DNA from: Sphingomonas sp.
Lineage (GTDB): Bacteria; Pseudomonadota; Alphaproteobacteria; Sphingomonadales; Sphingomonadaceae
DNA: 64,000 bases
NCBI RefSeq assembly: GCF_029239295.1
Contig: NZ_JAQZBC010000005.1
Coordinates: forward strand, 62,001-126,000
Reading direction: 5' to 3'
Part shown: one piece after another, positions 41,275 to 46,665 of the stretch
Layout: every line of letters starts with the position of its first letter
Position numbering within the stretch: position 1 is the stretch's first letter
Notes under the pieces: model-generated
Databases searched by the model: none
Seen by the model: only the letters and a program-made list of their open reading frames with translations
Told to the model about the DNA's origin: nothing
Translations under genes and position numbers: made by a program

Positions 41275-41994
41275 TCAGCCGTGCAGCACGTGATCCTTGT
41301 CGCGAACGGTGCGTGCGCTGTTTGCCGGATGCGCCGGATCCTCATAGCCAAAGGCGATGCCGAACAGCAGCTTGTGGTCGTCGCCGACGCCCAGCTCGCG
41401 GTGCACGATCTCGGCATGGTGGCTCAGCGCTCCTTGCGCGCACGATGCAAGCCCGTTCGCGGTCAGCGCCAGCATGAACGATTGCGCATACATCCCGCAA
41501 TCGGCCGCCTCGCGCATCCCCGCCCAGGCCGGGATGAACAGGAACATGGCGTGCGGCGCATCGAAAAAACGGAAATTGCGCAGGAATGATTCGGTCCGCG
41601 CTGCGACATCCTCGCGCGCCACGTTGGTCGCCGCGAACAGCGATTTGGCGGCATCGATCTGGCGCCCGCGATAATGGCCCGGATAGGCGCCGGTCAGCGG
41701 GAAATCGGGGGTCATCTTGGTGCCCGACTTGGCAGCATCGTGAAGCACATTGCGCATCCGCTCCGCGGCGTCGCCCGACACGACATGCGCGGTCCACGGC
41801 TGGACGTTGCAGTTGGACGGCGCCAGCTGCGCCATCTCCATCACCCGCTCCAGCAGCTCGGCGGGCACCGGATCCTTCTTGAACCCGCGCACCGAGCGCC
41901 GCTCGCGCAGCAGCCGCTCCAGCGTGTCGCTGTCGCTGTCGCTGGACCCTGCATTTGCCTGCCCGTTTGTCGCCGCCATTGCCGTCGTCGCCAT
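41275..41994 (-). CDS. Nitroreductase family FMN protein
   Basis: A 239-residue NAD(P)H:FMN nitroreductase-fold protein. The FMN-phosphate-binding pattern [12 protein letters not shown] is at about 33-44 and the family segment [12 protein letters not shown] near 56-67. The C-terminal GFGYED-type sequence is [14 protein letters not shown]. An unusual Ser/Asp-rich N-terminal stretch (SSDSDSDT) precedes the fold. ATG at 41994 follows TAGGAG at 6-7 bases. The length suits the FMN-dependent nitrobenzoate-reductase-like group; the substrate is unknown. Confidence 0.9.
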
Positions 41995-42088
41995 CACCCG
42001 CTCCTAAGTCACTTGTTCGAATCTCCTTGCCTCACCGGCGCCGCGAAGTCACCATCACCGGCAAAAGACCAGATGATGGAGAGGCACG

Positions 42089-43840
42089 ATGTACGACCTG
42101 ATCATTCGGGGCGGCACGATCGTAGATGGATCGGGCGCGGCCCCTTACCGCGGCGATGTGGCGATTTCCGGCGATCGCATCGCCGCGATCGGGACCGTCA
42201 GCGGCCCGGCTCGCCGCGAAATCGACGCCGCCGGAAAGCTCGTCACCCCCGGCTGGGTCGATATCCACACCCATTATGACGGCCAGATCACCTGGGCCTC
42301 GCGCATGGACCCGTCCTCGACGCTCGGCGCCACGACCGTCGTCGTGGGCAATTGCGGCGTCGGCTTCGCGCCGGTCCGCCCGCAGGATCACGACACGCTG
42401 ATTCGCTTGATGGAGGGGGTGGAGGACATCCCCGGTGCCGCGCTTCACGAAGGGCTGTCGTGGGAGTGGGAAAGCTTCGGCGAATATATGGATGCGGTCG
42501 ACAAGCTGCCGCACGACATCGACGTCGCCGTGCAGGTGCCGCACGGCGCGCTGCGCGTCTATGTGATGGGCGAGCGCGGCGCGAACCGCGATCCGGCGAC
42601 GCCGGAAGAGAATGAGGAAATGCGCCGCCTGACCGCGCAGGCATTGCGCGACGGTGCGCTCGGCTTCTCCACCACCCGCACGATGGTCCACCGCACCGCC
42701 GATGGCGATCTCACCCCCACCGTCCGCGCCGCGCGCGAGGAGATGGAGGCGATCGCCCGCGGCATTGCCGATGCGGGCTCGGGCGTCCTTCAATGGGTGT
42801 CCGATTTCCAGGAAATGGATGAGGAGTTCAGCCTGGTACGCGATCTGACGCAGATCGCCGGTCAGCCGTTGAGCTTCTCGATGGTCCAGGCCGATGTCGT
42901 TCCCAACCAGTGGCGCGAACTGACTCAACGCCTCGATGCCGCAGTCGCGGAAGGTTACCCCTTGAAGGCGCAGATCGCCGGCCGCCCGGTCGGGCTGATG
43001 CTCGGGCTGCAGGGCTCGGTTCACCCGTTCATCAGCCGCCCCAGCTATCGCGAGATCGCGGACCTGCCGCTGGCAGAGAAGGTCGCCCGGATGCGCGATC
43101 CCGACTTCCGCGCCCGCCTGATCGCCGAAATGCCAGAGAAGGATCACCCCTTCGTCAATTCGGTCGCCGGCGCGCAGCACAAGATGTTCCGCATCACCGA
43201 CCGCGTGGACTATGAACCCGATCCCTCGACCAGCCTCGCCGCCGAGGCCGAGCGGCTTGGCGTCCACCCCGACGAACTGGTCTATGACGCGCTGCTCGAG
43301 GACGAGGGCCGCGCCTTCCTGTTCTTCCCGATGCACAATTACGTCGAAGGCAACCTCAACAACGTCCACGCGATGATCACCAATCCGAACACGCTGTCGG
43401 GCCTGTCGGATGGCGGCGCGCATGTCGGCGCGATCTGCGACGTCAGCCTGCCCACCTTCATGCTGACGCACTGGTGCCGCGATCGCACCCGCGGGCCGCT
43501 GCTCGACCTCGCCGACACGGTGAAGCAGCAGACCCGCGACACCGCGCTTGCCGTCGGGCTGGCGGATCGCGGCCTGCTCGCGCCCGGCTATCTCGCCGAC
43601 GTCAACGTCATCGATTTCGACCAGCTCGAACTCGGCAAGCCGTACATGGTCTATGACCTGCCGACCGGCGCCCGCCGCCTGATGCAGAAGGCGACCGGCT
43701 ATATCGCCACGATCAAGTCGGGCCAGGTGATCTATCAGCACGGCGAGGCCACCGACGCCCTCCCCGGCAAGCTCATCCGCGGTCGTCAGCCGGCACCCGC
43801 CCCTGCCGCCGGCGCGGGGCGACAGGCGGTCGCTGCCTGA
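42089..43840 (+). CDS. N-acyl-D-amino-acid deacylase-like amidohydrolase (copy 1)
   Basis: A 583-residue member of the D-aminoacylase branch of the amidohydrolase superfamily. The N-terminal strand reads MYDLIIRGGTIVDGSG. The first metal motif HxH is DIHTHYDGQ (about 68-76), the metal-bridging Cys typical of D-aminoacylases lies in VGNCGVGF (about 90), and the late Asp/His motif is [15 protein letters not shown] lies before the ATG. It is longer than classical D-aminoacylases (about 480), with extra sequence in the middle of the barrel. It is clearly paralogous to the gene two positions downstream. The Pro/Ala-rich tail is dispensable-looking. The substrate is unknown. Confidence 0.9.
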   Translation: MYDLIIRGGTIVDGSGAAPYRGDVAISGDRIAAIGTVSGPARREIDAAGKLVTPGWVDIHTHYDGQITWASRMDPSSTLGATTVVVGNCGVGFAPVRPQDHDTLIRLMEGVEDIPGAALHEGLSWEWESFGEYMDAVDKLPHDIDVAVQVPHGALRVYVMGERGANRDPATPEENEEMRRLTAQALRDGALGFSTTRTMVHRTADGDLTPTVRAAREEMEAIARGIADAGSGVLQWVSDFQEMDEEFSLVRDLTQIAGQPLSFSMVQADVVPNQWRELTQRLDAAVAEGYPLKAQIAGRPVGLMLGLQGSVHPFISRPSYREIADLPLAEKVARMRDPDFRARLIAEMPEKDHPFVNSVAGAQHKMFRITDRVDYEPDPSTSLAAEAERLGVHPDELVYDALLEDEGRAFLFFPMHNYVEGNLNNVHAMITNPNTLSGLSDGGAHVGAICDVSLPTFMLTHWCRDRTRGPLLDLADTVKQQTRDTALAVGLADRGLLAPGYLADVNVIDFDQLELGKPYMVYDLPTGARRLMQKATGYIATIKSGQVIYQHGEATDALPGKLIRGRQPAPAPAAGAGRQAVAA

Positions 43841-43915
43841 TGCTCGCCACCTTCCCGGCGATGGCGGCGTCACGCTCGTCTAACGGCGCATGGCATACCG
43901 ATCGGACGGGGCCTG

Positions 43916-44818
43916 ATGGCGGGCGGATCTGACATGCCGCCGCTCATCATCGAGGCCGCGCTGAACGGCGCGACGCCCAAGGCGCGCAATCCCAACGTCC
44001 CGGTCAGCCCGCAGGAACTCGCCAGCGGGGCGCTGGCCGCGATGGAGGCCGGCGCCGCGATCGTTCACACGCATATCGAGCGGATGGACATGACCGGCGA
44101 CGCCGCGGTCGACCGCTATATGGAGGCCTACGCCCCCGTGCTCGCGGCTCGGCCCGACGCGATCCTGTGGGGCACCGTTGCCACCGGCCCCGACGTGGAG
44201 GCGCGCTTCGGCCATTATCGTGGCCTTGCCCGAGCCGGCGTGCGGATGGGCGCGTTCGATCCCGGCTCGGTCAACCTCGGCACGCACGGCCCCGACGGCC
44301 TCCCCGGCGCCTCGGTGCTCTACGCCACCACCTACCGCGACATCGCCTGGCTCGCCGATCTCCACGAACAGGAACGCCTCGGCCCGGCAATAGCGATCTA
44401 CGAACCGGGCTGGCTGCGCACCACTTTGGCCTATGAACAGGCCGGCCGGCTCCCCGCCGGCACCTTCGTGAAGCTCTATTTCGGCGGCCGCTACAATTTC
44501 CTCGATGGAAAACGCAGCAACGTCACCTTTGGGCTTCCGCCCACCGAGAAAGCGCTCGATGCCTATCTCGAAATGCTTGAGGGCTCGTCGCTCCCCTGGG
44601 CAGTCGCCGCAATCGGCGATTGCGTCGTCGAAACCGGCTTGGCGAAGCTGGCGATCGAACGCGGCGGCCACGTCCGTGTCGGGCTGGAGGATTTCGGCGG
44701 CGAGCGTCGCCCAAGCAATCTGGAGCTGATCGCCGAGCTCGTTTCGTTCGCGCAACAGGCCGGCCGCCCTATCGCGACGCCCGAACAGGCGAGCCAAATT
44801 CTCGGCCTGCCACGATGA
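43916..44818 (+). CDS. BKACE family protein (3-keto-5-aminohexanoate cleavage, DUF849)
   Basis: A 300-residue TIM-barrel beta-keto acid cleavage enzyme. Family members condense a beta-keto acid with acetyl-CoA to give acetoacetate and a CoA ester. IIEAALNG at the start, the zinc ligands in VHTHIER and VRVGLEDF at the end of the barrel are typical. YEPGWLRTTL and KLYFGGRYNF lie in substrate-contacting positions. ATG at 43934 (MPPLII) is an alternative start. Because it is flanked by two deacylase paralogues, it probably acts on the carbon skeleton released by them, which would be a keto acid derived from an N-acylated amine. Confidence 0.88.
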   Translation: MAGGSDMPPLIIEAALNGATPKARNPNVPVSPQELASGALAAMEAGAAIVHTHIERMDMTGDAAVDRYMEAYAPVLAARPDAILWGTVATGPDVEARFGHYRGLARAGVRMGAFDPGSVNLGTHGPDGLPGASVLYATTYRDIAWLADLHEQERLGPAIAIYEPGWLRTTLAYEQAGRLPAGTFVKLYFGGRYNFLDGKRSNVTFGLPPTEKALDAYLEMLEGSSLPWAVAAIGDCVVETGLAKLAIERGGHVRVGLEDFGGERRPSNLELIAELVSFAQQAGRPIATPEQASQILGLPR

Positions 44819-44919
44819 GGCCGGCCCCGTATCAGACGTGGCCAATCGTCTCCGCAGACAGGCCAATGTTCTCCGGCAACAGGCCGGACTGACCCCATCA
44901 CGATTCCAGGAGAGGCCAC

Positions 44920-46665
44920 ATGTACGATCTGTTGGTGAAGAACGGCACCATCGTCGATGGCACCGGCGCCCCCCGCTACCGCGGCGATGTCGCGGTGCGG
45001 GGTGACACGATCGTCGCTGTGGGCCAAGTGTCTGGAACAGCACGTGAAACCATCGACGCCGATGGCTGCATCGTCACCCCCGGCTTTGTCGATATTCACA
45101 CCCACTACGACGGCCAGGTCTCCTGGGACAGTGTGTTGGCCCCCTCCTCGATCAACGGCGTCACCTCCGCCGCGATGGGAAATTGCGGCGTAGGATTCGC
45201 CCCCGCCCGCGCCGACAAACACGACTGGCTGATCCAGCTTTTGGAAGGGGTCGAGGACATTCCCGGCACCGCGCTGGCGGAGGGGCTGACGTGGAATTGG
45301 GAGAGTTTTCCCGATTATCTCAATGCCTTGAGCGAGCGTGAATATACCATCGATCTCGGCGCCCACATGCCCCACGCAGCACTTCGCGCCTACGTCATGG
45401 GCGATCGCGGCGGTGACCATCTGGCCCGCCCGACGCAGGGCGAAATAGATCGCATGGCCAGCCTGACCGCCGAGGCGATGGAGGCCGGCGCGCTCGGCTT
45501 CTCCACCTCGCGCACCCACGCCCACCGCAGCCGCGACGGGCTCAACATCGGCACGCTGACGGCCGAGGATCCCGAACTGCTCGGCATCGCCGCCGCGCTG
45601 CGCACCACGGGCAAGGGCGTCATCCAGTTGATTTCTGACGCTTATCTCACTGCCGACGATGATTTTGCGGCGGCCGAGCTCCAGCTGATTCGCCGCCTCG
45701 CCACCACCAGCGGCCGCCGCGTTTCCTTCACCGTGCAGCAGACCGACGACGCGCCCGATCGCTGGAAAAGCATTTACCGCGAGATTGATCAGATGGTTGC
45801 CGACGGCCTTCCGGTCAGCGCGCAGGTCGCGCCGCGGCCGATCGGCGCGATCCTCTCCTTCGCCTCCACCACCAACCCGTTCGTCGTATCCGGAACCTAC
45901 CGCCGCATCGCCTCGCAAAGCGCCACCGTCGATGCGCGGCTCGAGGCGCTGGCCGATCCCGACGTGCGCTCTGCGATCCTCGCCGAACATGCCGGCTTCC
46001 ACGCCAGCGAAGGCTTTATCGCGCTGATCACACGCGGTTTTTCGCGCATGTTCCGGATGACCGACCCGGTCGACTACGAACCGCACGAAAGCCAGTCGAT
46101 CGCCGCAGAGGCCGCGCGCGCCAATGTTGATCCCGCTGCCTATGTCTACGACGCCCTGATGGAAGAAGGCGGACGGCGCCTGCTGTACATGCCGCTGATC
46201 AACTACGCCCGCGGCAATCTGGACGATGTACACGGCATGATGACCGGCAATCATGTGCTCTACGGCTTGTCTGACGGCGGCGCGCATTGCGGCACCATTT
46301 GCGACGGCAGCTTCCCCACCACGACGCTTGCGCTCTGGTCGCGCGGCAACAAGGCGGGCCTCAGCACCCCGATCGAATCGCTGGTCCACGGCTACAGCCA
46401 GAAGAACGCCGCGCATGTCGGCTGGCACGATCGCGGCGTGCTGGCGCCCGGCTATCTCGCCGATCTCAACGTGATCGCGCTCGACGACCTTGCGCTTGCC
46501 CCGCCCGAAATCGTGCAGGATCTGCCCGCCGGCGGCACCCGCCTCCTCCAGCAACCGCGCGGCTACGAATGGACCGTGAAGTCCGGCGTCCCGACCTTCG
46601 CGCGCGGGGAATGGACCGGGCGCACCCCGGGCCGCTTGGTACGCGGCGCTCGCACTTTGAGCTGA
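44920..46665 (+). CDS. N-acyl-D-amino-acid deacylase-like amidohydrolase (copy 2)
   Basis: A 581-residue paralogue of the gene at 42089, colinear along its length. The shared features are [36 protein letters not shown] and GLSDGGAH. Divergence is concentrated in the central section (about residues 210-310), which should shape the substrate pocket, and at the C-terminus, where the Pro/Ala tail of copy 1 is missing. GGAGAGG precedes the ATG. All metal-site motifs are intact, so both copies should be active, possibly on different substrates. Confidence 0.9.

Follow-up and report, generated by a model that had tools for sequence, protein, structure and literature searches.

D-aminoacylase (1m7j, 1v4y) and N-acyl-D-Glu deacylase (3gip) share a fold made of a small beta-domain plus a TIM barrel. 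In D-aminoacylase, His220 and His250 together with Cys96 are reportedly the ligands of the essential zinc, while the HxH motif and the last Asp are said to form a weak metal site. Enzymes of the BKACE family (PF05853) are represented by Kce (2y7d) and by BKACE15 of P. denitrificans (8rio), and the D-tartrate-type cis-epoxysuccinate hydrolase (5zmu) is also close to the enzyme described below. Replacement of E171 with Leu abolished the activity of P. denitrificans BKACE15 (PMC11961710). PF05853 also includes groups without BKACE activity, G6 and G7 (PMC4922564). No description of a BKACE paired with an amidohydrolase in catabolism was found in the open-licence literature. In a 64,000-nucleotide stretch of Sphingomonas sp. 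DNA (the window), a BKACE-family gene lies between two amidohydrolase genes, amhA and amhB (Table 1), and this AmhA-BKACE-AmhB module, shared by certain bacteria of soil and water, is conserved and apparently undescribed.

Table 1. Features of the AmhA-BKACE-AmhB locus, in window positions
Feature	Position	Strand	Remark
AmhA	42089..43840	+	583-aa Amidohydro_3 protein, intact ORF
BKACE-family (PF05853) gene	43916..44818	+	300 aa, intact ORF
AmhB	44920..46665	+	581-aa Amidohydro_3 protein, intact ORF
Gap BKACE/AmhB	44819..44919		101 bp; site of an IclR-family regulator gene in relatives, absent here
Nitroreductase, divergent	41275..41997	-	neighbour in Sphingomonas only; probably outside the module

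The open reading frames and the Pfam domains agree that the trio is real, intact and colinear, as a first, sequence-only reading of the window had described it. AmhA and AmhB match Amidohydro_3 (5e-52 and 1e-44) and the middle protein matches BKACE (2e-51), all far over the cut-off. Most BKACE orthologues use as their start the Met equivalent to position 43931. The intergenic gaps within the trio are 75-101 bp, and promoter and terminator prediction across it gave results at the level of shuffled sequence. In the 3.47-Mb genome, the two amidohydrolases are the sole ones of their type and the PF05853 gene is also the sole one. The divergent nitroreductase gene and ctaB lie upstream and queA lies downstream, and none of these looks like a pathway partner. 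The nitroreductase was considered as a fourth member of the module and was rejected, as it is found in the Sphingomonas flank only.

Co-conservation of the three genes, the lack of which the sequence-only reading had named beforehand as a possible refutation, was found, the order being kept in several lineages. Genome contigs were scanned with the middle protein, which gave 37 loci. The full AmhA-BKACE-AmhB order occurs in Sphingomonas (the window and L002, L003, L004, L006, L007 and L008), in Polymorphobacter (L009, L010 and L011) and in Phenylobacterium (L016, with L017 cut by the contig end), and in S. dokdonensis and a Caulobacteraceae MAG parts of the trio run out at contig breaks. The flanks vary among Sphingomonas, Polymorphobacter and Phenylobacterium/Caulobacteraceae, while the order of the trio is constant, and in most relatives AmhA and BKACE almost touch, with a spacing near zero. 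A gene of the IclR family is located between BKACE and AmhB at seven loci (L006, L008, L011, L014, L016, L017 and L024). Because the order stays constant while the flanks change, and because the IclR gene lies inside the trio at these seven loci, the trio is a genuine co-inherited module. The IclR gene is missing from the clade of the window and from one Polymorphobacter lineage; its position between BKACE and AmhB appears to be the ancestral state, with loss in the clade of the window. Relocation of the regulator within the window genome was rejected, since the closest IclR there is merely 36% identical and is thus no clear orthologue.

The dN/dS values against close relatives, 0.06-0.14, show purifying selection on each gene of the trio. 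The distance matrices of AmhA, BKACE and AmhB agree (r 0.92-0.98), which shows that the genes of the trio are not shuffled among lineages, although shared descent alone would also yield such agreement. A BKACE with at least 74% identity is present in 4 of 251 genomes of the family, exactly those that have an AmhA with at least 80% identity, and both a close BKACE and a close AmhA are missing from the remaining genomes sampled in the genus of the window. At the thresholds used, Amh-type genes were found in 102 of 385 Alphaproteobacteria vs 11 of 385 for this BKACE, and they mostly occur without BKACE. Relatives of AmhA with 60-69% identity are solitary (L076-L078), those of BKACE with 43-50% identity mostly lack Amh (L084-L087), and for a BKACE with 67% identity at L013 no Amh neighbour of either kind was found. 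The pathway link of the trio is therefore firm in one clade only, as the relatives of Amh and BKACE are usually unpaired elsewhere.

The middle protein scores 175.5 bits with PF05853, against a curated cut-off of 24.8, and resembles Kce and BKACE15 in fold, zinc triad, and catalytic Glu and Arg. Among 30 aligned proteins, the zinc ligands H53 and E258 are conserved in all and H51 in 29, and E163, at the position of the catalytic Glu, is conserved in all 30. R254 is kept in the clade of the window and is replaced by His in 7/30; His stands in place of Arg254 in the BKACE genes of L019-L023, L025 and L037, which are mostly actinobacterial. In P. denitrificans BKACE15, E163 and R254 correspond to E171 and R254. 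This mapping runs through E143 and R226 of Kce and relies on an offset of 28 residues that is the same for both. The enzyme nevertheless differs from Kce and BKACE15, with 29% identity at most, and it has D115-P-G-S where Kce has N-A-G-T and no equivalent of the amine-binding E14 of Kce. With the Kce equivalog it reaches 112.9 bits, far below the cut-off of 382, and for none of the named BKACE models that it matched does it attain the NCBIfam cut-off. The retained zinc triad, Glu and Arg make BKACE catalysis plausible, as had been claimed. Since PF05853 has groups without this activity, conversion of a beta-keto acid and acetyl-CoA to acetoacetate and an acyl-CoA by the middle enzyme is no more than likely.

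The predicted structure of AmhA (pLDDT 88) has D-aminoacylase 1m7j as its best PDB match, and its neighbours are D-aminoacylase, the D-acylase of Klebsiella pneumoniae, PpOngB and N-acyl-D-Glu deacylase, at 20-25% identity. The Amh proteins share with 1m7j and 3gip the fold, the HxH motif, the GNCG cysteine and the SDG aspartate, but they are about 100 residues longer, 24% identical, and without the histidines of positions 220 and 250. The claim of intact metal motifs was therefore half right: the motifs that had been listed, like VGLEDF in the BKACE protein, are present, and AmhA retains H60 and H62 (HxH), C89 (GNCG Cys) and D441 (SDG Asp), but the two further metal-ligand positions of D-aminoacylase have no His. 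H220 and H250 are invariant in the D-aminoacylase reference, which comprised five proteins from annotated plasmids, whereas a profile-profile alignment placed no His in either column in 83/83 Amh proteins. Between residues 202 and 426, no column has His in at least half of these 83 rows. Two histidines of the Amh proteins are new relative to 1m7j and 3gip, H201, which is near-invariant (95%), and H445, which is invariant, and they could join a different metal site. As AmhA and AmhB lack two metal-binding residues needed by D-amino-acid deacylase chemistry, they are probably not enzymes of this kind, and the known D-aminoacylase catalysis cannot simply be assumed for them.

AmhA and AmhB are 48% identical. 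Identity falls to 28-38% over residues 201-350 against 54-64% over residues 1-200, so the two differ most in the middle of the barrel, as had been noticed from the sequence alone. In the tree they form separate, well-supported clades that each track the host lineages, with AmhB on a long stem, and this separation rules out a recent tandem duplication. The earlier suggestion that the two enzymes have diverged and probably act on different substrates is upheld.

The genomic context of Amh relatives was sampled in 11 annotated plasmid stretches centred on them. Genes of acyl-CoA metabolism are present in seven of the 11, most stretches include SDR, P450, flavin monooxygenase or TonB genes as well, and one has a gene of the Asp/Glu racemase family; none of the 11 contains an aminotransferase gene. 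One plasmid relative adjoins genes for acyclic terpene utilisation, and that of Novosphingobium sp. ES2-1 adjoins an acyl-CoA/enoyl-CoA/CoA-transferase run. The amidohydrolases of sphingomonad catabolic plasmids (such as pNL2 SARO_RS19105 and ES2-1 IM701_RS20485) belong with the Amh proteins of the trio to one clade of about 580 residues, at 44-51% identity, but they have no adjoining BKACE in the stretches read and likely act on other substrates. An amidohydrolase of Caenibius tardaugens, whose relation to the Amh clade is uncertain, is strongly induced by cholate and was proposed to hydrolyse conjugated bile salts (PMC12882949). The catabolic character ascribed to the module is in keeping with these neighbourhoods. 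In sphingomonads the clade is common, often with several copies per genome, and it also occurs on catabolic plasmids. Public records often annotate it as D-aminoacylase, yet it lacks residues which that annotation presumes. With two zinc ligands absent, this label is likely a systematic misannotation. Public plasmid records carry it for members at L096:11959-13728 and L111:7986-9737.

We tentatively favour, at a little under an even chance, a catabolic operon in which the Amh hydrolases free a beta-keto acid and BKACE makes acyl-CoA and acetoacetate from it. The trio would be the structural part of a small operon once under IclR control. In this view AmhA and AmhB are not D-aminoacylases but putative metal-dependent hydrolases that form a distinct clade within the amidohydrolase superfamily. 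They would act on two related substrates of cyclic, ester or amide type, which they would open or trim, and this hydrolysis would release the free beta-keto acid. BKACE would then condense it with acetyl-CoA and cleave the product to acetoacetate and a new acyl-CoA, with no ATP spent, and the acyl-CoA would enter beta-oxidation. Three points of this scheme are inferred: the action of the amidohydrolases upstream of BKACE, the bond that they break and which beta-keto acid is released. The BKACE partner has a definable chemistry and offers a route to the substrates of Amh, as the beta-keto acid of BKACE should be the Amh product. A wider proposal, which we consider rather unlikely, is that the Amh proteins of about 580 residues make up a large class in which the metal site has been rebuilt and the bonds hydrolysed are C-C or ring bonds of alicyclic, terpenoid or steroid-like compounds, and that in this operon two such enzymes are coupled to BKACE for ATP-free formation of acyl-CoA from a ring-derived free beta-keto acid.

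A rival view of the middle step is that the enzyme is an epoxide hydrolase or another side branch of PF05853, serving ring catabolism beside the hydrolases. The profile of its subfamily has cis-epoxysuccinate hydrolase as best match (1.8e-38 vs 1.4e-30 for Kce), the model is as close to this hydrolase (TM 0.83 vs 0.76 to Kce), and the invariant D115 aligns with the hydrolase Asp that reads Ala in entry 5zmy. However, of the acidic pair of the hydrolase only the Asp (APVDLGS) is matched, by D115, and the Glu (LLFELTD) is replaced by the invariant Y188. Glu163, the position of the BKACE catalytic base, is invariant here and is Thr in the epoxide hydrolase, and R254 is retained in the clade of the window, so that this assignment is unlikely. 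It is also quite unlikely that the trio is a neighbourhood kept by descent, with an unrelated job for each enzyme. Such a history would fit the many relatives of each gene that lack the other two, and descent by itself predicts the agreement of the trees, but it accounts poorly for an order that three families share despite changing flanks, with almost no space between AmhA and BKACE, for all-or-none presence in the family sample, and for similar pairings in Frankia and at L099.

The sequence-only reading had AmhA and AmhB as N-acyl-D-amino acid deacylases, with a separate enzyme removing the amine and BKACE cleaving the keto acid. The closest solved structures do include deacylases of this kind, but at such low identity and with both zinc-site histidines missing this is improbable. 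In addition, an ordinary alpha-amino acid deaminates to an alpha-keto acid, which is no BKACE substrate, the lineages examined showed no gene for a transaminase, a D-amino-acid oxidase or an amino-acid transporter next to the trio, and the amidohydrolase relatives lie in clusters of acyl-CoA, terpenoid or steroid type. A further candidate role is the degradation of N-(3-oxoacyl)-homoserine lactones or of a different beta-keto amide, from which Amh would release a beta-keto fatty acid for activation by BKACE. By inference, such a two-step route could account for the presence of both an amidohydrolase and an enzyme of beta-keto acids. With no quorum-sensing genes, no homology evidence and two of the usual zinc ligands absent from Amh, it is highly improbable.

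At L099, a distant sphingomonad locus, BKACE adjoins one Amh-like gene and a second lies close by. Two TonB receptor genes are also present there, as are genes for a PQQ dehydrogenase and for a luciferase-like monooxygenase; this stretch (L099:2096-19001, Sphingomonadaceae) is a diverged version of the module, likely with uptake genes. The AmhA-BKACE pair of Frankia (L019) has in its neighbourhood genes of FMO-like monooxygenase, zinc dehydrogenase, AMP-binding enzyme and acyl-CoA dehydrogenase type. In Polymorphobacter, a third amidohydrolase gene lies directly downstream of the trio (L010:11347-13053, partial in L009), and beyond it come genes for alpha/beta hydrolase and FAD-dependent oxidoreductase. 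The product of this third amidohydrolase gene is 32% identical to AmhA, and its nearest sampled relative is actinobacterial (L037).
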